Assembly (NCBI RefSeq): GCF_947496515.1 | Contig: NZ_CANMDB010000016.1 | Coordinates: 1-64,000, forward strand | DNA length: 64,000 nucleotides | Origin: an uncultured Roseobacter sp. | Lineage (GTDB): Bacteria; Pseudomonadota; Alphaproteobacteria; Rhodobacterales; Rhodobacteraceae | Direction of reading: 5' to 3' | Shown: positions 50,533-63,702 of the stretch, piece after piece | Numbering within the stretch: position 1 is the first letter of the stretch | Layout: each line of letters begins with the position of its first letter | Notes under the pieces: model-generated | The model's database searches: none | Seen by the model: only the letters and a program-made list of their open reading frames with translations | Told to the model about the DNA's origin: nothing | Position numbers and translations under genes: made by a program

Positions 50533-51246
50533 CTAAGCAGCCTGATCGAATTGAATTCTGCCGTCGTGCAGGAAGAAGAGCTTGCGGAAGACGGACAGAT
50601 TGATCGGATTTGGCAATCGGACATCAGAGATATCTGGCATGAACTTGCCACTCAAATCGAACGACCGGTCGATTTGCGAGATCATGGCACAGATTGCACC
50701 TGAGCCGATCACGTATTTCTGGAGGGACTTGATCTGATCATCGAGGCTTGGGTTGGTGCGCTTCTGATCCAGGATCTGAAGGTAATCGATCACGATGAGC
50801 GCAGGCTCACTTTCGGCCATTAGGCGGCTGATGACATGGTCCGCAGAAACTTCATCAGATGTGTCGATAACCACCGCACTATCGCTTGAGCTTGGATCAA
50901 CACCAATGCTTGACAACCGATCTGCTACGTCGCGCTCATGGTAATCCAGCGTGAAGAAATAGCCTTTGCGGCTGAGTTGCGATGCCCTCGCTGCAAGCTC
51001 AAGCCCGAGAAGCGTCTTGCCTTGCCCTGGTCGTGCTCCGACGAGCACCAGATCGCCGGGCTCCAGTTGCCGCAAAATAGGTCGTGCCGGACTTTTGTTC
51101 AGCGGCGACGACACGAGATGGCTCCAGCTTTGAAAGCCCTCGTCTATGGCGACCTTATCCAGAGCCTGATGCAAGGCGATATCGATGTCCCGCGCCAATA
51201 GCTTGGCATTCCGCTTTAACACGTAAATGGGAGCAGATAACTGCAT
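50533..51246 (-). CDS. DnaB-like RecA-fold ATPase
   Basis: About 237 residues from an ATG at 51246, set by an excellent gaggagg five to six bases upstream. After a helical N-terminus (KRNAKLLARDIDIALHQALDKVA) comes a RecA/DnaB-type core: Walker A GARPGQGKTLLG, a FTLDYHERDVADRL segment, Walker B LIVIDYLQILDQ, and a sensor-like MISQIDRSF. It has no DnaB N-terminal or primase-binding domain. At half the size of DnaB it is unlikely to be the replicative helicase. Its role is unknown. It follows the TIR-STAND gene on the same strand with a 275-bp gap. Confidence 0.75.
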   Translation of the reverse strand: MQLSAPIYVLKRNAKLLARDIDIALHQALDKVAIDEGFQSWSHLVSSPLNKSPARPILRQLEPGDLVLVGARPGQGKTLLGLELAARASQLSRKGYFFTLDYHERDVADRLSSIGVDPSSSDSAVVIDTSDEVSADHVISRLMAESEPALIVIDYLQILDQKRTNPSLDDQIKSLQKYVIGSGAICAMISQIDRSFDLSGKFMPDISDVRLPNPINLSVFRKLFFLHDGRIQFDQAA

Positions 51247-51521
51247 GTGTCTTCCTCCTCTTTCGAGCTGCTTCTGCAATCCCTCCTTATGCTTGCGCTC
51301 GAATGAGACAAGTTGAGACAATTCGGCTCCGCATGATGGATGCTTCCCGGACGGAGGGCGGAGGCCCGAGCAAGGCCTGCGCATAACCTGCTCCGAATGA
51401 ACCGGCAGCTCAAGATGAAAGTGGCCGCTGGCCACTCCCGAATGCTCAGCAGCACGGGCTCACAGCCGTCAATCGGGCGGCCTTCTCCATTCATTCACCC
51501 TTGTCTCTCCAGATGTCCGTC
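51247..51521. other. Intergenic region between the STAND gene and the DnaB-like gene
   Basis: About 275 bases. It holds the ribosome-binding site and probably the promoter of the DnaB-like gene. No gene or strong hairpin is seen. Confidence 0.4.
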
Positions 51522-54500
51522 TCACGAATGACCCGATCCCGACAAAGGAGTTTCCGTGAGGTCGAAAAAATGCACCCCACCAATCGCGTCGCCAAGCAGC
51601 ATTGTTGAGACATGAAATGACGCCGCAGTCACGATCGCGTCGAAGGTCAGGATTGCCGTCTCGGTCCCGGTGATGGGATCCCAGAGACGTGCCGAGCGAT
51701 CGCGTGACATCGTCAGGAGATGCCTTGAATCTGGCGAAAAAACCACGCTCTCCACCCAGCTTTCATGTCTGCTCAATGAAACGACCTCTGCTCCCTTTGC
51801 AACATCCCAAAGGAGAACCGGATTGCCTCGGGATTGTAGCGTAACAAGTCTAGCGCCATCTGGTGAGAAGACCGCTCTCTCTACCTTGTGCGGCAACTGT
51901 GCAATCTTGTCACCCGTGGTAGCGTTCCAAAGATCAGCAACTTGCTGGAGTGTAATCGTCAGCACAGTGGCGCCATCAGGCGAAAAAACCGCGTGTTTTA
52001 CGCCGCCGTGTTCGCTGTCCAGTACCGCAATCTCAGAACCACTGACACTGTCCCAAAGCCGAGCGACTAGACCGGGAACTGAGATCGTCACGACCCGCTT
52101 GCCTTTTGGAGAGAGAAGCGCCTCGCGTATCGTTTCCCCATTCGGCTGAAACACCACGGCCTCTTGTTGTACGTCTGTATTCCAAAGTTTCGCAGCACCA
52201 CCCTCTGAAGTAATCAGAACCTTCAAACCGTCGAAAGAAAAGACCGCATTCGCAATTGGGCGCCCGTGACCGTGTAACGTCACAGCCTCTGATCCAGTGT
52301 TTGCGTCCCAAAGCCGGACGGCGTGGTCTTGTGAGATCGTCAGGAAGCGGTCGCCCGTTGGGCTGGACACGGCATCAACAACGGACGCATCGCCTGCGCC
52401 TAGCCGCCTAACCTCTTCGCGCGAGAACGCATCCCAGAGTCTTGCGACGCCTCCCGAGACGGTGACAATGCGCTTTCCACCCAGCAAGAACTGAGCATCG
52501 GGCAGGCCTACCTCATGCCCTTGCAGAAGGGCTACCTCAGAACCACTGCCAACATCCCAGAGACGAGGGTCGCGGTCGTGGTAGTCCGAGATCGTGAGAA
52601 CTTGCGTGCCGTCGGGCGACATCAATGCGCGCACGACGCCGCTTTTTCCCTGCAGAACCGACGACTGGTTGCCGGTTGAGGGCGTCCACAATCGCGCGGT
52701 GCCATCCTCGGACGTCGTCAAGGCTAAACGACCGTCCGATGAGAACACTGCGCTTTTGACTGTGCGCTGGTGTCCGGGCCGGTCCGTTGGATAGGTGCTG
52801 TTTGCGTCCCAAAGCAAGGCACCGTGATTGGCCGCCGTCAGCACATTCTGACTGTCCGGAGAGAAGACGGCGGCTGTCAAATCACCCTCATGCCGATCCA
52901 GTGTCCCGACCGATGCACCCGTGTCAGCGTCCCAAAGACGCGCAAGGTGGGTCGAACTCGTCAAGACGCGGCGCCCATCTGGCGAGAACTGCGCGTCTTT
53001 CAGCTGCTCCCCGTGCCCGCCCAGCTCTGCTTCCGGGTGTCCGTTGGTCGTATTCAAGAGCAGCGCACAGTCCCATCCACGGGCAAGGATGTATCTGCCA
53101 TCAGGCGAGAAGGACGCAGTGCAGCTCCTCTTGGACCCACTGTTCAGGGATGCTAACTCCGTGGCATTTATTGTGTCCCAGAGCACAAGGGTGCCATCCC
53201 CAAACGTCGCAAACGCCCGATCGTTGTTCGGTGAGTATTGGACGCTCTGCGCCGCGAACTTGCATGCCAGTACGCCCGTCTCTCTTCCTGTGTTAGCATC
53301 CCAAAGTCTGGCGGTCCGGTCTTTGGACGCGGTCAAGACCCTGGTTCCGTCTGGTGAGAACACCGCAATGTGAACACTGGCCGCGTGTCCCTTCAGCTCC
53401 CTCACAAGACCGCCATCGCCGGCATCCCAAAGAGCCGGGTCAGCCGTTTCCCGGCGACCAAGGTCTTCGTCGAAAACGGTCAATACCTGATGACCGTCGG
53501 GCGAGAATGCTGCGTTCTTTACCCAAGCCTCTCCTACCCCAAGCACCGCGGTCTCGTTTCCGGTGACCGTGTCCCAAAGCATCGGATTGCCGTGCCCTGG
53601 CGACAAGGTCAGGACACGGGAGCCATAAGGGGAAAATACCGCCTTGGCAGATTTTCCAAGCGTTGCAGCCTCGACTCCGCTGGCGGCATCATGAAGGCGG
53701 ACGGTCCCGTCCTCTGAGCGGTTCAGGACCCGTGTGCCATCGGGTGAAAAAGTTGCGTTCGTCAGCCCTGGCATTTCGAGTACCGCTATTTGAGCGCCGC
53801 TCGCGACGTCCCAAACACGTGCCGTCCCGTCGTTCGACAAAGTCAGCACCCTATTGCCAAAAGGCGAGAACACTATCGGTGACCAAGCGCCATAGGCCGG
53901 GAGAGATGCAATCTCGACCCCGGTAGCACTATTCCACACTTTCACTTCACTTCCCGCAGCGGCAAAGACACGGGATCCGTCGGGAGAGAACATGGCGCTC
54001 TGGATCGCCATAGTATGCCCAACCAAACCGAACCGCAGCTGGCCAGGCGGGGTCAGACGGGGGCATGTCGGGACCGGCCACAGCGATGGGGTGCTACGTG
54101 CCGACCGAGCAACTTCGACAGCCGCCGGAAGTCCGGCGTCGGCAAGCCGGCCCCAAATCTGGTGGGACAGCTGGTCCGGCGATTGCGCGAGTGCCGGGAT
54201 CGACAAAGCGACAGCGCGTCCGACGAGCTGGGCTGCGGGATCCTCCGGCTCGTCATGCCATGCAGCCAATAAACCTTGTGCGCCGGTCACTGCTAGCCTT
54301 GTCTTGATCCAAATGAAGTCGGTCAGCAGGCGATCAGCCTCCGCACCGCGGCCCGCCGCCCGCAGGTGATCGATGAGAAAACGCCAGCCGTAGGACGCCT
54401 GCTTTGGCATACTTGCCCAGTCGCTGACGCAAGACGCGGCCAGGGCCTCCACCATCTTGCTATGGGCCTCTGTCAGCCCATCTTCTCCCAGCCGGTCGCG

Positions 54501-55937
54501 CAGGAGCCACTTCATGTTATCGTGCAAACGCACTGTGCGGGTGCCGAGATCCAGTTCCTGAAGAAGCGACAGCCCGTCGAGGCGTTCCAGGAGTTCCTCG
54601 GTCTCGAGCAGATCGAACTGACCACTCTGGTTCCAGAGAGCATCGATGATGTCGATGGGCACCGCAACATCCTCGGGCAAGACAGCCAACTCGCGGAACC
54701 TCGGCCGCTCAAGCGCATCATCGAGGTCTTCGGTACTCGCGTCGACGCAGAGCCCGATCGCGCGGTTTCGCTGATCCTCGTCGCGCGCATCGAAGGCGGT
54801 CAGGCCACGGCGGTCGAGGCGGTCCTGAAACGTCCCAAGAGCTTTGTCGACGCTCTCGTGTTTCGCGACCCGGGAGCGGACGAAGCCATTGGCGATGTCG
54901 AGGAGCTGCGCCCATCCCTCGAGACGGCCCGCGAGACTGTCGAAAGCGACGCGCGTGGCGGGGTGTACAACGTTCAAGTCCCAGGACAGCAGCTGAAGTG
55001 CCTCAGTCTGGCGCATTTCGTCGATCCGGATCGGCGTACAATCCTGGGGTAGAACCGACGGTTTCCGCGTTGTGATCAAGCGGACACAGTTTGGTCCACC
55101 ATAGAGAAACGGGCGCAGTTGGCTTTCGTACCAGACATCGTCGATCACAAGCAAAAGTGACGCCTCGCCGATCAGCCCTCCGAGATGTTCACCGGCCATG
55201 GTCTCATCGGTAAAACCGGGACGCGCGCCGTCGGGGTCTAGCTTTTCGATGAGATCGTTGACCAGTCCCAGTACGCTGGGACGTTCCTTGCCGATCTCCA
55301 CGCGGAGTATTCCGTCCCAGAACTGAAAGCGCACCTCCTCGTCGCGACAGAGGTCATTGGCAAGGACGGTCTTGCCGTAGCCGCCGGAGCCGACGAGCGC
55401 GACCGAGCCGCCTCCGGATGCCATAACAGATGTCTTCAGGGCGCCGAACTCGGTCGAACGCCGGACATAGGAAGACGGAAGGTGGCCCTGATGAAAGGGC
55501 ACGCGCCGCCGCTCACCAGGGCCTTCCAAAACCCGGAGAAGCGTGATGAAGCGCTCGGGCTCGCTGAGATCATAGACCTCCGCTCTGCGCAGCCAAAGGG
55601 GAAGATCGCGCTTGCGCAGGCTGGCATCGCCCAGCACAGGGCTGACCCTCTTCCCCTTGGCCCAGGCATGTCTGTATTCCCGCTTCACCCAGTCTGAGAC
55701 GAGCGCCCGCTTGCTCAGCACCAGCACAAGGTGTTCCGCCTGTTCGATCGCCCTCAATGCCTGAAAGCGAACATCATCGCTTTCGATGTCCTTGAGATCG
55801 CGCCAGGACGTCAAGCCCTGCTCCGCGACACGCTTTTCAAAGTCCTCGGCGAATTCCCTGCCGTCAGCGCGCGAGTAGGAGATAAAGATCCTATTGGGAG
55901 AGAACTCTGGATGCGCCTGTTCGATGAGTTTGGTCAC
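51522..55937 (-). CDS. TIR-NB-ARC-WD40 STAND protein
   Basis: A 1471-residue protein starting at GTG 55937, whose GTGA overlaps the upstream stop. Residues about 15-115 are a TIR domain (RIFISYSRADGREF, then SDWVKREY with a candidate catalytic Glu at 87). Next is an NB-ARC ATPase: P-loop GSGGYGKT (183-190), Walker B LLLVIDDVW (about 260-268), an ITTR motif, and RLHDNM (about 470) at the place of the MHD motif. From residue 640 to the end are about 19-20 WD40 repeats with the recurring FSPDG..VLT.S.D..ARLWD pattern. This is an NLR/Apaf-1-like layout. The likely role is infection sensing by the WD40 part, assembly by NB-ARC, and NAD-directed killing by TIR; that role is inferred from the family. 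Confidence 0.9.
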   Translation of the reverse strand: MTKLIEQAHPEFSPNRIFISYSRADGREFAEDFEKRVAEQGLTSWRDLKDIESDDVRFQALRAIEQAEHLVLVLSKRALVSDWVKREYRHAWAKGKRVSPVLGDASLRKRDLPLWLRRAEVYDLSEPERFITLLRVLEGPGERRRVPFHQGHLPSSYVRRSTEFGALKTSVMASGGGSVALVGSGGYGKTVLANDLCRDEEVRFQFWDGILRVEIGKERPSVLGLVNDLIEKLDPDGARPGFTDETMAGEHLGGLIGEASLLLVIDDVWYESQLRPFLYGGPNCVRLITTRKPSVLPQDCTPIRIDEMRQTEALQLLSWDLNVVHPATRVAFDSLAGRLEGWAQLLDIANGFVRSRVAKHESVDKALGTFQDRLDRRGLTAFDARDEDQRNRAIGLCVDASTEDLDDALERPRFRELAVLPEDVAVPIDIIDALWNQSGQFDLLETEELLERLDGLSLLQELDLGTRTVRLHDNMKWLLRDRLGEDGLTEAHSKMVEALAASCVSDWASMPKQASYGWRFLIDHLRAAGRGAEADRLLTDFIWIKTRLAVTGAQGLLAAWHDEPEDPAAQLVGRAVALSIPALAQSPDQLSHQIWGRLADAGLPAAVEVARSARSTPSLWPVPTCPRLTPPGQLRFGLVGHTMAIQSAMFSPDGSRVFAAAGSEVKVWNSATGVEIASLPAYGAWSPIVFSPFGNRVLTLSNDGTARVWDVASGAQIAVLEMPGLTNATFSPDGTRVLNRSEDGTVRLHDAASGVEAATLGKSAKAVFSPYGSRVLTLSPGHGNPMLWDTVTGNETAVLGVGEAWVKNAAFSPDGHQVLTVFDEDLGRRETADPALWDAGDGGLVRELKGHAASVHIAVFSPDGTRVLTASKDRTARLWDANTGRETGVLACKFAAQSVQYSPNNDRAFATFGDGTLVLWDTINATELASLNSGSKRSCTASFSPDGRYILARGWDCALLLNTTNGHPEAELGGHGEQLKDAQFSPDGRRVLTSSTHLARLWDADTGASVGTLDRHEGDLTAAVFSPDSQNVLTAANHGALLWDANSTYPTDRPGHQRTVKSAVFSSDGRLALTTSEDGTARLWTPSTGNQSSVLQGKSGVVRALMSPDGTQVLTISDYHDRDPRLWDVGSGSEVALLQGHEVGLPDAQFLLGGKRIVTVSGGVARLWDAFSREEVRRLGAGDASVVDAVSSPTGDRFLTISQDHAVRLWDANTGSEAVTLHGHGRPIANAVFSFDGLKVLITSEGGAAKLWNTDVQQEAVVFQPNGETIREALLSPKGKRVVTISVPGLVARLWDSVSGSEIAVLDSEHGGVKHAVFSPDGATVLTITLQQVADLWNATTGDKIAQLPHKVERAVFSPDGARLVTLQSRGNPVLLWDVAKGAEVVSLSRHESWVESVVFSPDSRHLLTMSRDRSARLWDPITGTETAILTFDAIVTAASFHVSTMLLGDAIGGVHFFDLTETPLSGSGHS

Positions 55938-56386
55938 CGCAGTGCCTGGATCACCGAGGCCAGCAGGAGAATTCCATAGAGACCGATAAACGCAAATGGC
56001 GCCCATTTCTCAAGCCCAGTGAAGGACCGTCGGCCCATCGCCTTGTAGATCTTCTGTTCGCGCTCGAAAGGCGCGACCGGCAGGCTCTTCTCCATCTCAT
56101 GCAGAACCTGGAATTTTGCGCCATTCAGCTTGGAGTATGAGGCAAGCAGGACCGCCCAGGCGAAGCACACGATAATGCCGGCCGCTGGAATGGCCAAAAG
56201 CCAGAAGCCCTGCTCGAACTCGCTGACCGAAGCGCCCCCCATCTTCAAGTAGCCATAAAGCGCGGAAATCGCGCTGTTGACGCTGAGCATCCAGGTATTC
56301 GCCGCAGCCCTGCGGTCACTGACCTTCTCGGCAGTTGCGAGGTAAATCTTGTAAAGCTCAAAGGTCTGATCGGGCTTATCGCTCAT
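55934..56386 (-). CDS. RipA-like small membrane protein coupled to the TIR-STAND gene
   Basis: About 150 residues from an ATG at 56386 (ggaggaa seven bases upstream). The N-terminus ELYKIYLATAEKVSDRRAAAN and two or three hydrophobic segments (about 50-65, 72-95, 128-148) match the RipA-family octameric membrane proteins. A cytoplasmic loop with PVAPFEREQKIYKAM lies between the helices. The stop overlaps the GTG start of the STAND gene by four bases, so the two are coupled and probably act together. It could anchor the complex or be a membrane effector. Confidence 0.75.
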   Translation of the reverse strand: MSDKPDQTFELYKIYLATAEKVSDRRAAANTWMLSVNSAISALYGYLKMGGASVSEFEQGFWLLAIPAAGIIVCFAWAVLLASYSKLNGAKFQVLHEMEKSLPVAPFEREQKIYKAMGRRSFTGLEKWAPFAFIGLYGILLLASVIQALR

Positions 56387-57100
56387 CCGGCATTCCTCCA
56401 TGTCCTAAGTATGGATTTTGCCCCGTCCGTCTTTCGCGCAAGATCCGGCCAGTTTCGACTTCCGTGTGAGGTGGAACCGCATCTGAAACCATGACTGCGC
56501 AGTCCGGACCAATCACAGGTTCCCCGTTGCGAGCCTCGCAGTCACCAGAGGCAACAGCTTTGCGTTTTTTGGCGGGCGAGAACACGGCGCTACTCAATCC
56601 GTTTGGTTTCAATTGCTCCGGCACTCCAAATTGGCCTTCTTCCAAAAAAGCTTGCAGGTACAAACAATCACGATCAAGCGGGAAATGAGCCAACCGTCGA
56701 CGCCGAATGCACCACTTACAGAATCCCCTTGTCAGGTTACACACACTGCAAAGACATTGCGACGCGCGATCAAAACACAACAGACTGTAAGCTCGGCGCG
56801 CTGCTCCGCGGACAGGCATCCGCCATCGAGCGTCAGAACAAGGCCCGTCCGCACCACAAGCGCCAGCCTGCGTTACCGAACCCTCATGAGGCAGATCCTA
56901 AGCATATTTGGGCGCTGTTGTACCCCCAATTACCATGTATGCACAGACTATGCTGCAGGTCGACACTCGATGTTCAGTGCTTCGTAGAATGGCGACATCC
57001 GTCAGTTTACGACCAGGAGAGAATTGCTCTGAAACCCGATTTTCCTACCATTTGTAGATTAGAGTCTTCGCTCATGTTTTCCTTGGGCTGGGGAGGAGCG
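56387..57100. other. Upstream region of the RipA/STAND pair, no supportable gene
   Basis: About 700 bases before an IS3 element. It should contain the promoter of the pair. A minus-strand stretch near 56575-56600 (SAVFSPAKKRKAVASGD) faintly resembles a WD40 unit but is not supported as a gene. Confidence 0.4.
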
Positions 57101-59191
57101 ATGAAGATGAAAGCATCCAAATTCAAGGACCCGCAAAAGGCGTTCATTGTAAAGCAGGGCGAGGAAGGCACGCCAGTTGCGGAGATCTGTCGCAAGGCTG
57201 GGATCCTTTGACCGGCAGGTCATTTTAAAGCAATCGCCGAGAGGGGGGCCAGGCGACTTACTTCAACTGGAGTGCAGGCGGACAAGAAAAGCGTCCAGTG
57301 GATGTTTTTCCCGCCAAACAATTACGCAGGTCTGATGCCGTCCGAGATGAAGAAACTGCGCGAGTTGAAAGACGAGAACCGGCGTTTGAAGAGTTGGAGG
57401 GGAAAGCAAATTATCCGGGGGATGATTTGCCCTGAACAACCGTCGCGGACCTGATGCTCGACAAGGAAATGGCGAGGTCTTTGTCCGCCATTGGTCCGAG
57501 GACAATGGGCGAGCGGATGTCGTCAAACGAAAGCTTTGAGGTCCGATCGTAAGCGCGAGATCATCGACGGTGTTCGGGAAGATTAGCGCGTCTCTGTCAG
57601 GCGCGCATGCAAGGTAATGCGGTTCGACAGATCGACTTATCAGTGCAAATCCCGACGCCGCGATCCGGCCAGTCTAAAATCCCGTATCAAAGAGATTTGC
57701 GGGACCCGCGTGCCGTATGGCTATCGGCGCGTGCATTATGTGTTGCGACGAGAAGGCTGGGAAGTGAACCCCAAGCGTGTGTACAGGATTTACAAGGAAA
57801 TGGGCCTGCAACTGCAGAATGAGTCCCCCAAGAGGCGCGTCAAAACCAAGCTGCGAGAAGACCGTTTAGATGCTGTTTGCGCGAACGATGTCTGAGCGAT
57901 CATTGCCCGGCAGGAGAATGCATGCATTCACCGAGAGGGAACTTTGTGCACGACCAGTTGGCCACTGAGCGCAAGCTTCGTATCCTGACAGTCGAAGACA
58001 TCTTCTCACGCTATTGTCCTGTCATCGACCCACGCTTCAGCTATCGAGGTGAGGATGTCGTAGCCACGTTGGATCGGGTATGTCGTGACATTGGATATCC
58101 CAAGACGATACGCGTGGATAACGGGAGCGAGTTCATCTCTCGCGACATGGATTTGCGGGCCTGTCAGCGTTGCGTCACTCTGGACTTCTCACGTCCTGGC
58201 CAGCCGACAGATAACTCCTTCATCGAGGCCTTCAACTCAAAGCTAAGAGGGGAATGCCTGAACACACACTCTTCAGGTCGCAAGGCTGATGCAGATCGCG
58301 AAAGAGATCCATCGCCAAGTTGTCCATTTCTGATCATCTGTGCTGTTTCGATCCTATCTCGTGTTGCCGTTCCTGATTTAAGCGATTTGAAGCCCGTCAT
58401 CGGGCGAGGTGGCCCCTTCACGCCACGGTAATCTTGCTCAAAGATGTTGTTGAGATATTTCAATCAGTAGATCTTGATCCGACGCGGCGAGCCGACGTCC
58501 CGCAACGCGGCGCTCACAGCATCGACGCCAGCTGTGTTGGTGCCACTTTGGTCAATTGTACGGGCGCGCGGCGGACTATTTGCTGCGATCGCTTTGGTCA
58601 AAAATCGTAGCACAGCTGCCTCATCGTGATGCTCAGACAGCATGAATCGAGTACTTGGCCGCGCAAATTCACAGCGCGTTAAAGATAGCACCAATCACCT
58701 CGCACTTTCATGTAGGTCTCGTTCAGACGCCATGATCGCGCAATCGGCGACTCCTGTTTTTGCGCAACCTTTGCCAAAGCTGAGGCATATTTCACGACCC
58801 ACTAGTTCAAACTCGCATGGTCAACCTGGACACCGCGTTCGGACAAGATCTCCTCCAGATCTTGGTAGGAAACAGCATAGCGGACGTAGAAAAGGACAGC
58901 ATGCAGGATGACATCTCGCGGAGATTGGGCACCTTAGGACGATACCGTCGGCATGACCTCAGCTGCTTTCGACGCTTCTACATCGGTCACCAGAACAAAA
59001 TTTGCGACAGAACCATATTGAGGGGATGCATATCGCTGAAGAATGAAAATATTGGTTACGATCCTGACCAACTGGGGTTTGGTAACACTTGGTGTAGAGA
59101 CCACAACAAAGAAAGACCGCATGGCGCCATTGGGAACAACGTCCCCGCAGCGCTGATGAAATTGCGAGACGTATCGAGCCCTTTTATGTGA
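57101..59191 (+). pseudogene. IS3-family (IS407-like) element, decayed and split by an IS6 element
   Basis: orfA pieces: MKMKASKFKDPQKAFIVKQG (57101) and MPSEMKKLRELKDENRRLKS (about 57332), separated by a stop and frame changes. orfB pieces: an N-terminal part with IKEICGTRVPYGYRRVHYVL (57617-57895), then the integrase core with VHDQLATERKLRILTVEDIF, GYPKTIRVDNGSEFISRD and the FSRPGQPTDNSFIEAFNSKL segment. At about 58300 it is interrupted by an IS6-type element. The tail WCRDHNKERPHGAIGNN resumes at about 59095. The catalytic DDE residues are mostly readable but the frames are broken. Confidence 0.85.
58300..59014 (-). mobile_element. IS6-family element remnant inside the IS3 element
   Basis: Read leftwards, the pieces match an IS6/IS26-type transposase: SPRDVILHAVLFYVRYAVSY (near 58915), a SWRLNETYMKVRGDW catalytic segment, FMLSEHHDEAAVLRFLTKAI, then KYLNNIFEQDYRGVKGPPRP and ETAQMIRNGQ near 58330. 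Several stops and a frame change make it inactive. The right end is a terminal repeat, the reverse of ggttctgtcgcaaa, at 59000-59014. The left terminal repeat is not found. Confidence 0.82.
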
Positions 59192-59256: not shown

Positions 59257-62200
59257 CTAGCGTAAATCAGCGGAGTCGTAGGGGGATAGGTCACTGATAC
59301 TAGCACTAATATCTTCTAGAGCTGTCTCTAGCGCAGCTGCGAAAGCAGGAACATTCTTGCCTTTAAAACAATTATAGTGATCACCAGGGGTGTCTATAAT
59401 GCTTGTGAGGTTCGCAATATTTGATAATCCATAGTCGCCACCACGTATGCCAACGGGTGTTTCAGCCGCCCTCACGAGAACAATCCGAATGTCGCTCTTG
59501 GGAGAGTACCCTCGCAAAAGACGGCCGTGCTGGTGATCCGATACGCGGCGGAAACGGCGTCGATCCATCTCCACGGGATCGCTGTCTCCGATCCGGATAT
59601 TGGCATACGTGTCACTGGCCTTTCGAAACGCTACGCGAAAAAAACGCTTTGTTTTGCTCGCCAATCGCATAAGCGCTCCAAAAGTCGATTGGTCGCCAAG
59701 TCCTGCATCCAAAATGATACAGCTTGCACTACCACCATCGTGGATCAGTTTCCGAGCAATTTCATAAACGGCCCGGCCGCCGGCAGAGTAACCAGCAAGA
59801 ATCCAAGGTCCTTCTGGATCAACGCTTCGAATGGCCGCTGCCATGCGAACAGCCAGGTCCTCCATGGTCCAAAGAGTTTCTTCATCATCAAACAATGCGG
59901 GATCAAGCACGCCAAATCCCTGCCAGCGGTCTGTCAAGCGTTCAATAACCGGGGCAAATGGCGCCACGTGTCCACCCCCGCCTGCCACTAAGTAGAACCT
60001 GTTACAGTTAGAATTAGTATCCAGTTTGGTCGGGAACCGTTCGATCAAACGATCCCAATCCTCATTTTTCGCTAGGCACTGCAGAGAGTCTTCGACAAAC
60101 TGTGCGATACCTTCGCGGGTTGGGTCGGCAAACATGCCTGAGGGAGGCAACACGATCTTCAATCGTTCTTCCAGCAGATGTGTTAAACGTAGCATTGACA
60201 AGGAGTCTCCTCCTTCATCAAAGAATGACGTGCCCGGCTTTACAGCAGAGATCTTCAGTGTTTCCTTCCAAAGATCAGAAACGATTTCTTGGATTTCAGG
60301 TTGAACAGGGTTTCTTATAAACGGCGCGAATTCATTTCTCTCGAAACTCTCAACGCCCTTTTTCGCATTTTTCGCAAGAAAACCGGAGAGTTCAGTTTCA
60401 GGGTCTCTCAAAACTTCGGCCATCGCGCTTTCGATCCGTTCGGCAAACAACTCCATTGTCTGTTGGTCGTGCAGGATAGGATCATATATCAAGCGGAGTT
60501 CACGTGTATCAGGGTGATCAATAATTGTTATCCAAAGATCGACCCACGTTGCGTCTTGGTCTGGCGCAATTTCGGTCGATAATAAATCGCCATCTAACTC
60601 TAAGGTACCAAATGACTTGCGATGAGTGAAAAAAATATGTCCAAATGGTGCCGCGTCTATCCTGTGTGGTAGCTTCATGTGCTGAAACAGCGCTTCCGCG
60701 CGTATGTCTTGATGCATCAAATAGTCCAAGACTGTTGTGCGTATCTTCTTCAAAATCGAGGCATAGCTGGAAAATTGATCGATCTGGGACCGCATAACAA
60801 TCGTATTTGTGAACATTCCGATCAAATTGGCTACTTCTGGGCACGACCGTCCCGCAATCTGGGTGGAGATCGTGACATCAGGTTTTCCTGTCCATTTATG
60901 GATCGCACAGATAGTGGCCGCCAAGGTGGTCATGAATGGTGTGGTCTCAGATGCGCGCTCAAGCGCATCAAACTGATTAGTCATGTGCTTTGGCAAAAAA
61001 CGTTTCACAGTTCGGGATGAACCGGGAGCCCTGGTCACAGCGGAGGTTGGCGCCAGCGCGTTGTTCGGGTCAGCGCCATCCAATTCCCCCGCCCAACCAT
61101 CAAGCGCCGCAACCTGCTCCGGAGTTTTGACCTTTTGCCCTTGCAGGGCGGCAAAATCTGGGTATTGAAAAGGCAACCCTACTAAATCATGCGCGACACC
61201 ACGACGAGCTGCACGATAGATTTCGGCAACTTCCGAACGTAAGATACGCATGGACCATTCATCGCTGACAATGTGATGAATGCTTAAGATCAACAGCGAT
61301 TTGTCATTGGCATATCGCAAGAGCCGAGCGCGAAAAGGCGCCTCCGACGAAAGGTCAAATGGACGTGTCGCAGCAGCATTGACTTCCATCTTGGCTGCAT
61401 TGACGTCATCCGCCCACTCGACCTCAAGCACGGGCGTGACCTTGCTGGCTAAACAAACCGGTATCTCTTGGGTGTAGTCGAACCTCAAACGAAGCGTTTC
61501 ATGCCGAATGACAATTTCATCAATCGCATAGCACAGCGCTTCAACGTCCAAAGGTCCTTCCAGCAAGTCAGCCTGTATGAGATTATAGCAATCTGGGTTG
61601 GAGGAAACGAGATGCGCAAAAAGTATACTCTTTTGTGCATCGGATATGGGAAGAGGCGCGTCGCGGGGCAGCAACGGAATCCGGGGTATCTTGGATCTTT
61701 TACGTCGACGGGCCAGTAATTTCGTCTCCAACGCTCGACGCTCTGCAAGCGTATTTACACCTTTGGTTTCGGCACCAGCACCAGTGTGGTGTTCACCCGC
61801 TTTCAACGCTTCAAAAACGGCCTCACCGAGACTACGTATTGTTGTGTTCTGGAAGAGGCTGGCATGGGACGTCGCTAGAGAAATGTCTTCTTCAATTCGA
61901 AAACTGAGCTGCATGGCAAGCAGGGAATGGCCACCAAGATCGAAGAAGTTTTCGTCAATGCCAAAATCATTGCGCTGCAGAACGTCTTCCCACAGACCCG
62001 TCAGCAACTCTTCCACCGGCGTTCGGGGTGCAACGGTCTGTTGAATGGCAGCTGAAACATCCAGCGCCAAAAGAGCGTTTCGATCAATCTTACCATTGGA
62101 ATTAAGCGGAAGGCCGTCAACGATCCGCCACTCCCCAGGTATCATCCAATTCGGCAAATTGGCCCGCAGTGCAGTGCGCAGCGTCTGGACGGCAAGAGTG

Positions 62201-63621
62201 GCTTTACTCTTTGGAACAATAAATGCCGCTAGTGCCGTGACAGTGGTACCAGACCGCCGCGGAATGACGACAGCATCGACTACCTCGTCCAAAGCGCGAA
62301 GAGCGGACTCAATCTCTTGCGGCTCGATTCGAAACCCGCGCATTTTGACTTGCCAGTCCTGCCGACCAAGGAAGTGCAAAACACCGTCTTGGTCCCACTT
62401 GGCCCGATCCCCTGTGCGGTAGAGCCGCGCATCCGCATCATGCTGAAAAGGGTCTGGTACAAAGGCAGCCGCCGTATCCTCCGGGCGGTTCAGATAGCCG
62501 CGCGCAACACCATCGCCCCCAACCCACAAATCGCCCTCAACGCCGACAAGCACCGGGCGCATGGCACGATCCAGCACATATGTAGATGAATTGGCTAAGG
62601 GACGCCCAATCGGAATTGCGCCACAGGCGTGCTCGGGCATGATGCGATGCAAGGCGGAAAAAGTCGTGTTTTCTGTCGGTCCGTACCCGTTGAAAAGGAT
62701 CAAGTCGGGAGCGGCTTCAAATATCTTTTTCACATGATCGGTGGAAAGCACATCGCCCCCTGCCAAAACACGGCGGCGACCAACAAAGCAGTCAGGGCGC
62801 AGATCTACCATCTGTTGGAACAGACCAGCAGTGAGCCAGAGCGTATTGATATCCTCGTCAATGATGAGGTCCGCCAACGCGTTCAGTGATGGCATGCCAC
62901 CGGGTGGCTGGATGAGCTTAGCACCTGAGAGGAGCGCCCCCCAGATTTCAAACGTGGACGCATCAAAACTGGTGGGAGAAAAGTTCAGCATTTGGTCGTT
63001 TGGACCAATCTTCACATCGGTCAAACCACTGATGAGCCGTAGAACGTTGCGATGGGTGACACATACCCCTTTGGGGGTTCCTGTGGAGCCTGAGGTGTAG
63101 CCGACATAGGCCAAAGACTGCGCGGCAATTTCCGGTCGTTTAAACGTCTCGCGATTTCCGCGCAGACCATCGACATCAATGGTCGTCACTGTGTTCTGTA
63201 ACCGTGTCGTGTCTCGGTCAGGCAGGATCACCACTGCCCCGGAGTCTTTCAGCAGCACTTCTAGGCGCTTTGGCGGCTGAGTTGGATCAAGGGCAAGGTA
63301 AGCTCCGCCTGCCTTCAAGATCCCCAAAAGCGCCGCAATGAGCTTTGGCGAGCGTTCCATCAAAGTTGCAACGATCACCTCTGGCCCAACGCCAGACCGG
63401 CGCAACTTTGCCGCAATCCCGTCTGACCATACGTCAAGCTCGGCGTAGGTCAGCCTGGCATCCCCTTGCTGAATACAGACCTTGCTTGCATGTTTTTGAG
63501 CAATGCTGGCAAAGACTTCCGCAATCGAGCTTTGGCGCGGGTAGTCTCGTGCCGGACCAACGGACATTTTCAGTGACTGAACCGCTTCGTCAGCCGGGAA
63601 GCTTGTGTAGCTGGTTGTCAT
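59257..63621 (-). CDS. Non-ribosomal peptide synthetase, A-T-C-T-TE
   Basis: About 1454 residues from an ATG at 63621 (aagga ten bases upstream; 63657 is an alternative). Domain order: adenylation (YVGYTSGSTGTPKGV, GYGPTEN, RTGDRAKWDQDG, NSNGKIDR), carrier (DLGGHSLLAMQ), condensation (HHIVSDEWS), second carrier (DEGGDSLSMLR), thioesterase (LAGYSAGGRA and a C-terminal GDHYNCF). The A-domain pocket read by eye is DAFWLGGTF, close to a published Val code. The second carrier has no A domain of its own. It lies alone, without MbtH, tailoring or export genes. The thioesterase is expected to release a short or cyclic product. Confidence 0.9.
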   Translation of the reverse strand: MTTSYTSFPADEAVQSLKMSVGPARDYPRQSSIAEVFASIAQKHASKVCIQQGDARLTYAELDVWSDGIAAKLRRSGVGPEVIVATLMERSPKLIAALLGILKAGGAYLALDPTQPPKRLEVLLKDSGAVVILPDRDTTRLQNTVTTIDVDGLRGNRETFKRPEIAAQSLAYVGYTSGSTGTPKGVCVTHRNVLRLISGLTDVKIGPNDQMLNFSPTSFDASTFEIWGALLSGAKLIQPPGGMPSLNALADLIIDEDINTLWLTAGLFQQMVDLRPDCFVGRRRVLAGGDVLSTDHVKKIFEAAPDLILFNGYGPTENTTFSALHRIMPEHACGAIPIGRPLANSSTYVLDRAMRPVLVGVEGDLWVGGDGVARGYLNRPEDTAAAFVPDPFQHDADARLYRTGDRAKWDQDGVLHFLGRQDWQVKMRGFRIEPQEIESALRALDEVVDAVVIPRRSGTTVTALAAFIVPKSKATLAVQTLRTALRANLPNWMIPGEWRIVDGLPLNSNGKIDRNALLALDVSAAIQQTVAPRTPVEELLTGLWEDVLQRNDFGIDENFFDLGGHSLLAMQLSFRIEEDISLATSHASLFQNTTIRSLGEAVFEALKAGEHHTGAGAETKGVNTLAERRALETKLLARRRKRSKIPRIPLLPRDAPLPISDAQKSILFAHLVSSNPDCYNLIQADLLEGPLDVEALCYAIDEIVIRHETLRLRFDYTQEIPVCLASKVTPVLEVEWADDVNAAKMEVNAAATRPFDLSSEAPFRARLLRYANDKSLLILSIHHIVSDEWSMRILRSEVAEIYRAARRGVAHDLVGLPFQYPDFAALQGQKVKTPEQVAALDGWAGELDGADPNNALAPTSAVTRAPGSSRTVKRFLPKHMTNQFDALERASETTPFMTTLAATICAIHKWTGKPDVTISTQIAGRSCPEVANLIGMFTNTIVMRSQIDQFSSYASILKKIRTTVLDYLMHQDIRAEALFQHMKLPHRIDAAPFGHIFFTHRKSFGTLELDGDLLSTEIAPDQDATWVDLWITIIDHPDTRELRLIYDPILHDQQTMELFAERIESAMAEVLRDPETELSGFLAKNAKKGVESFERNEFAPFIRNPVQPEIQEIVSDLWKETLKISAVKPGTSFFDEGGDSLSMLRLTHLLEERLKIVLPPSGMFADPTREGIAQFVEDSLQCLAKNEDWDRLIERFPTKLDTNSNCNRFYLVAGGGGHVAPFAPVIERLTDRWQGFGVLDPALFDDEETLWTMEDLAVRMAAAIRSVDPEGPWILAGYSAGGRAVYEIARKLIHDGGSASCIILDAGLGDQSTFGALMRLASKTKRFFRVAFRKASDTYANIRIGDSDPVEMDRRRFRRVSDHQHGRLLRGYSPKSDIRIVLVRAAETPVGIRGGDYGLSNIANLTSIIDTPGDHYNCFKGKNVPAFAAALETALEDISASISDLSPYDSADLR

Positions 63622-63702
63622 AAGGGCCGGGTCCTTGATCACATTAGAAAGGATCATGAAAAACGGTATGTCGCAAACTTCTCCTTTCCGTCAAGAAGTG
63701 CG

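Follow-up and report, generated by a model that had tools for sequence, protein, structure and literature searches.

TIR enzymes are common to plant, animal and bacterial immunity. In the Thoeris system, as described in the excerpted text of PMC12578639, a TIR protein makes a cyclic ADP-ribose, which switches on a second protein. For the TIR-NLR found in P4-like satellites, Rousset et al. (2022; PMC9122126) describe protection of E. coli by one gene, which encodes a TIR-STAND-TPR protein and needs no membrane partner. SLATT proteins, in turn, have been predicted to act as nucleotide-responsive pores (PMC7159879, in its excerpted text).

Here we describe a gene pair lying in a stretch of 64,000 nucleotides of an uncultured Roseobacter sp. 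(hereafter the window), which an earlier note had proposed as a candidate anti-phage system made of a small membrane protein, called 8xMP below, and a TIR-NB-ARC-WD40 protein. Its features and its immediate upstream neighbourhood are the following:

56394..56399, minus strand: GGAGGA, Shine-Dalgarno-like, seven bases before the 8xMP ATG at 56386 (sequence)
55934..56386, minus strand: 8xMP membrane protein gene, first of the pair, 150 aa (PF24838, E 2e-32, 112.3 bits)
55934..55937, minus strand: GTGA, stop/start overlap of the 8xMP and TIR genes (sequence)
51522..55937, minus strand: TIR-NB-ARC-WD40 protein gene, second of the pair, 1471 aa, GTG start
55560..55889, minus strand: TIR_2 domain, residues 17-126 (E 8.2e-17; fold like those of the SARM1 and SPARTA TIR domains)
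55677..55679, minus strand: Glu87 codon (in WVKRE), at the position of the TIR catalytic glutamate (sequence, alignment)
54267..55436, minus strand: region that aligns to Apaf-1 (residues 168-557), with NB-ARC, winged-helix and helical parts
55368..55391, minus strand: P-loop GSGGYGKT, residues 183-190, with Lys189 (sequence, alignment)
55131..55157, minus strand: Walker B LLLVIDDVW, residues 261-269 (sequence, alignment)
54516..54530, minus strand: RLHDN, residues 470-474, counterpart of the NLR MHD motif (sequence, alignment)
51558..54059, minus strand: WD40 region (PF00400, E 4.5e-65; 20 repeats by eye)
56603..58431, plus strand: transposase remnants (HTH_Tnp_1, weak; HTH_21; rve; in separate frames), upstream of the pair and not part of the system

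The two genes overlap by four bases, as had been noticed. Because this overlap reads GTGA, the TIR gene starts with GTG, and this start places the FISY motif at the spacing seen in relatives (alignment consensus MxxxxSPPRIFISYS). Translation of the TIR gene is likely coupled to that of 8xMP at the overlap. Overlapping frames are a common layout of toxin-antitoxin genes, and such tight coupling would suit a reading, quite improbable in our judgement, in which 8xMP serves as inhibitor or immunity partner and keeps the TIR enzyme inactive. The overlap, with 8xMP as the first gene in the window, also suggests co-production, which speaks for the main rival to our own interpretation, namely that 8xMP anchors the receptor or senses phage entry at the membrane while the TIR domain kills by destroying NAD+, no second messenger acting on 8xMP.

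The second protein is NLR-like in its domains, its motifs and its predicted, Apaf-1-like fold. The TIR domain, the P-loop and Walker B of the ATPase and the RLHDNM motif claimed by the earlier note were all located, with Glu87 and the P-loop Lys189 rightly assigned; of the WD40 repeats, put there at about 19-20, 20 were counted by eye in the sequence and 8 pass individually in Pfam. Across 31 aligned sequences, the window's among them, Glu87, Lys189, Asp266/267 and His472/Asp473 do not vary. A glutamate occupies the position of Glu87, the catalytic one in known TIR enzymes, in all 40 aligned TIR-NLR rows and in 13 of the 15 correctly cut TIRs adjoining or near 8xMP. The RLHDN stretch corresponds to the MHD motif of NLRs; together with the P-loop, Walker B, NB-ARC homology and the fold, this MHD-like motif assigns the protein to the STAND/NLR (AP-ATPase) class. 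In turn, the TIR fold with a glutamate at the catalytic position is the structural mark of TIR NADases and cyclases, and the domain is a candidate NAD+-cleaving enzyme.

The partner proved to be the small multi-helix membrane protein that had been announced. It exceeds the curated Pfam cut-off of PF24838 (112.3 bits vs 30), and AlphaFold (AF2, 28 rows, mean pLDDT 87) predicts four helices, at residues 5-48, 56-99, 106-116 and 123-149, three of them long enough for membrane crossing. The label "RipA type" is a database name, taken from NCBI's naming of relatives, some of which, among the matches listed, are called "RipA family octameric membrane protein"; it is this family name that suggests an octameric state. 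The distribution of charges would place the N-terminus and residues 81-122 in the cytoplasm, with a short loop on the outer side. R25, R26, W77, K91, E99, E110 and E126 are invariant in 41 rows ranging from archaea to the window and other proteobacteria, seven rows of other branches having been removed beforehand. The charged residues among them are within or border the predicted cytoplasmic parts, a placement that would suit a ligand site or a gate, and they exceed the needs of an anchor, which argues against the anchoring reading. In a tree of 45 PF24838 rows built by a quick method, a branch carrying the motif "DIRKFEIELYWKR" (6 rows) separates from the remainder (39 rows) with full support. 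Searches by sequence found no solved relative of 8xMP, and structure comparison returned generic helix bundles only. No PADLOC (2023) model matched the four 8xMP proteins scanned, and NCBIfam (June 2026) gave no match for the three submitted to it. Furthermore, 8xMP was absent from the viral contigs and phage records searched, and the TIR-NB-ARC part from the viral contigs searched.

Among 53 distinct loci collected by 8xMP alone, 21 carry a same-strand TIR gene directly beside it, a count that may miss further TIR neighbours because our final profile overlooked one (L065) that Pfam caught. TIR calls were made with this profile, which included one wrongly cut row (L094, residues ahead of the TIR domain; its TIR was confirmed by Pfam), and part of the negatives were rescanned with Pfam. 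Before repeats were removed, the share of loci with a TIR neighbour was 7 of 16 for genome contigs, 8 of 13 for plasmids (13 opened of 16 records, with the near-identical Leptolyngbya records H5-H7 left out), 4 of 20 for the phylum set (all 20 scoring above the Pfam cut-off and coming from 19 of its 398 genomes) and 6 of 8 for the family set (8xMP in 8 of 394 genomes); matches below the cut-off (G016, G371, G120, G255, G076) are not counted. By our own rough yardstick of 1-3 TIR genes among about 4000, chance would put one next to 8xMP in roughly one case per thousand, and the observed adjacency is far commoner than this. In the window's genome, moreover, the sole TIR_2 match adjoins the sole 8xMP match. 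Control loci of other families (15, the window's own locus L113 excluded) showed a TIR gene beside the centre gene in two cases, both DUF4231/SLATT genes of one genus.

The coupling to a small membrane protein extends beyond close relatives: the pair occurs again in other families and phyla, and TIR genes of other kinds also have 8xMP beside them. As for the co-occurrence of RipA-family and TIR-STAND genes that the earlier note wished to see checked, it was found in other genomes, and the window itself did not appear as a defence island (PADLOC, 36 of the 60 listed ORFs).

The sizes of contigs point in the same direction, an indirect support because only the window's and the Rhodobaculum contigs were read. 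Between contigs above 4 kb taken from the best rows of the homologue lists (best 120 of 393 and of 539 for 8xMP, best 120 of 195 for TIR-NLR), 10 identical sizes were found, 65 contigs standing in the 8xMP list and 112 in the TIR-NLR list; controls shifted by 1 to 300 bases in both directions averaged 0.36 and reached 4 at most. The first 60 TIR-NLR rows, with 55 contigs, contain all 10, and the remaining 57 contigs contain none; this split is post hoc because we placed the line behind P0180, the last row with a match, the farther part including some partial matches of 48-55% identity. TIR-NLR and 8xMP distances correlate over 9 pairs (r 0.63; 6 of 5000 permutations as high), five of these pairs being inferred from equal contig size and the 8xMP of L019 being cut by a contig end. 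Two different TIR-NLR proteins, P0133 and P0141, come from contigs that both have the size 103335, perhaps two copies on one contig. That the two genes are unrelated and adjacent by chance, for which the existence of unpaired 8xMP genes is the sole point, has in our view a negligible probability: barring an unseen bias in collection, it is already contradicted by the 21 of 53 loci and the 10 exact size matches against a control mean of 0.36, and it fits poorly with the occurrence of both gene orders and with the spread over several phyla.

In 32 of the 53 loci, some of them contig ends, there is no directly adjacent same-strand TIR gene; this is so for five of the six members of the "DIRKFEIELYWKR" branch, and in three Chlorobi loci (L004, L010, L012), whose 8xMP belongs to the window's own, TIR-linked clade, TIR is absent on both sides. 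A lipocalin-like gene precedes 8xMP in L004 and L012 (by eye). Three more distant TIR-NLRs (31-35% identity) occur in genomes without an 8xMP match, and therefore a TIR-NLR can do without 8xMP. In addition, the 8xMP gene is broken in 2 of the 21 paired loci (interrupted in L096, in two frames in L079). An inhibitor that holds the TIR enzyme in check would hardly be expected to leave TIR genes persisting beside its broken copies, to stand without a TIR neighbour in Chlorobi or to be missing from genomes with distant TIR-NLRs, and these cases argue against the toxin-antitoxin reading.

Direct reading showed the TIR-NB-ARC-WD40 protein together with 8xMP at four loci, namely the window and the first three entries below; the further entries give the other kinds of TIR partner:

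Rhodobaculum claviforme (L008): TIR-NB-ARC-WD40 and 8xMP, TIR gene first
Rhizobium leguminosarum plasmid (L087): TIR-NB-ARC-WD40 and 8xMP, TIR gene first, annotated one base apart
Acidobacteria MAG (L019): TIR-NB-ARC-WD40 and 8xMP, TIR gene first
Silicimonas (L006), Ruegeria (L007) and L011: TIR_2 partners of 344-524 residues
L065: SEFIR/TIR_2 protein
Archaeal MAGs (L014, L015): ThsB-like TIR proteins, two TIR genes each
Plasmids of Synechococcus, Polaromonas, Novosphingobium, Haladaptatus, Natronorubrum, Natronosalvus and Paracoccus: ThsB-like TIR partners
Four further genomes (L071, L078, L079, L081): ThsB-like TIR partners

The 8xMP gene comes first in the window and in L007, and the TIR gene in the other 19 loci; as both the build of the partner and the gene order vary, it is the link between 8xMP and TIR itself that is kept. 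The ThsB_TIR partners, single or double, are mostly of 127-146 aa. All six of those scanned matched PADLOC ThsB models (E 7.9e-18 to 2.1e-5), which places 8xMP where Thoeris has its effector ThsA; the three 8xMP proteins scanned alongside had no PADLOC match. The gene tables for L088, L091-L094 and L099, which are incomplete, name no ThsA, SIR2 or macro gene. On the Paracoccus plasmid (L096:2945-5279), the 8xMP that follows a ThsB-like TIR is split by a transposase-like gene of the opposite strand (by eye).

These small partners weigh on the reading in which 8xMP is an anchor or entry sensor and NAD+ loss is what kills. The protection conferred by the single-gene TIR-STAND-TPR protein (excerpted text of PMC9122126) favours it, since it means that a TIR domain can be the executioner; against it, 8xMP also pairs with very small TIRs that are similar to the signal-making ThsB and need no receptor scaffold, and on the whole we hold it to be unlikely. 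The "membrane-tethered NLR-like immune complex" of the earlier note therefore survives in part: there is an NLR-like TIR protein with a membrane partner, and a tether fits less well than a membrane effector of TIR signals, because 8xMP is also found with bare ThsB-like TIRs of 127-146 residues. The ThsB-like neighbours and the invariant charges in predicted cytoplasmic parts find their simplest joint account if 8xMP is such an effector.

Our preferred reading of the pair, to which we give about an even chance, is an immune-type module in which the receptor senses, the TIR domain makes a nucleotide signal and 8xMP acts at the membrane. In the course of events that we infer, the WD40 region would detect a signal of the intruder; the NB-ARC would then exchange its nucleotide and form a ring like that of Apaf-1; the TIR domains, now clustered, would make a nucleotide signal from NAD+ (a cyclic ADP-ribose or a similar molecule); and this signal would open or switch an 8xMP oligomer in the inner membrane, which would stop the infected cell and so protect against phage. 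The broader proposal, to which we give somewhat less than an even chance, is that 8xMP may be a general signal-gated membrane effector of TIR enzymes in bacteria and archaea, whose partners range from bare TIRs of ThsB-like build to larger TIR proteins and to TIR receptors that resemble Apaf-1.

If true, the window would hold an Apaf-1-like receptor with a membrane-channel output reached through a soluble NAD-derived signal. Plant TIR receptors signal to membrane-acting helper NLRs, and the module would be a bacterial parallel of them. A small membrane family found repeatedly next to TIR genes, in bacteria and in archaea, makes a natural candidate receptor of TIR signals; the effector reading would give the 8xMP family a testable function and, besides, would provide a bacterial Apaf-1-like receptor with TIR output.

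The genomic surroundings bear on whether the module would serve defence. Its neighbourhood in the window is an iron-uptake region, where PADLOC found no other clear defence system in the 36 of 60 listed ORFs covered. Iron-uptake genes at 17169-63657 comprise a siderophore-interacting protein, a FecCD permease and an NRPS (59257-63657, with adenylation, condensation and thioesterase domains). Downstream, at 50533-51435, lies a DnaB-like ATPase (NCBIfam PRK05973, "DNA helicase", E 2.5e-94), of a type matched in 3 of the 18 genus genomes searched, among which was the window's own. Apart from what the TIR protein itself matched, one window ORF each matched the PADLOC models RtcR/PspF CARF-AAA-HTH (E 1.2e-59) and mads_3 (E 1.5e-18), both probably ATPases of other function. 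The transposase remnants directly upstream are a hint of past mobility.

Such a setting would suit a signalling unit linked to stress or development (programmed cell death or an envelope response) rather than to defence, and so would the fact that NB-ARC-WD40 proteins are common in multicellular bacteria. RipA of another genus, for its part, has been reported to be required for intracellular growth in the host, with LpxA as the site of suppressors. We nevertheless regard this explanation as improbable: the patchy presence of the genes (of 19 genomes of the genus, one has an 8xMP match above the cut-off; TIR-NB-ARC was found in 1 of 390 genomes of the order, with at most three candidates scored per genome), carriage on plasmids, and the presence nearby of, for example, a type I restriction subunit (L091) or HNH and DUF262 genes (L094) suit defence.

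The comparison with the systems introduced above can now be drawn. The pair in the window shares with Thoeris a short operon in which a TIR protein is accompanied by another, separate protein; unlike in Thoeris, this second protein is 8xMP and not ThsA, and the TIR domain is fused to an Apaf-1-like receptor. The window TIR reached at best E 0.035 with the PADLOC ThsB models, ThsB_TIR is not among the 25 of 51 Pfam families listed for it, and no ThsA lies beside the pair, whose neighbours are the PRK05973-type helicase, the transposase remnants and the NRPS. With the P4-satellite TIR-NLR, it shares the union of TIR, STAND NTPase and C-terminal repeats in one protein; that system is a single gene with TPR repeats, whereas the window has WD40 repeats and a membrane partner (PMC9122126, excerpted text). 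The window protein matched the PADLOC TIR-NLR model with E 0.061 and within the TIR only, and is not assigned to that system. The predicted fold of its NB-ARC, winged-helix and helical region is like that of human Apaf-1, from which it differs in being bacterial, in having a TIR in place of the CARD and about 20 repeats, and in its membrane protein neighbour.

SLATT/DUF4231 proteins resemble 8xMP in being small membrane proteins with TIR genes adjoining in some loci, namely 2 of the 6 loci over the cut-off, both of one genus. In these (L103, L104; two genomes), each DUF4231 gene of SLATT type lies beside a TIR-like open frame. They are nevertheless 2TM proteins, against three predicted transmembrane helices in 8xMP, and hhalign gave probabilities of 0.2-0.8% between 8xMP and five SLATT sequences, vs 0.6-1.2% for reversed controls. 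Swarozyc/DUF4062 is alike in that it is a TIR-like NADase family whose human members combine NACHT and WD40; it differs as a separate family, and the word "membrane" occurs 0 times in the text obtained of PMC13174449. The pairing was not found described as a defence system among the papers listed by the literature searches (titles and starts of abstracts, few subscription papers, hence a weak check), in agreement with the earlier note. TIR signalling itself being known, what we rate as new is its combination with an undescribed membrane partner, here on an Apaf-1-like receptor.
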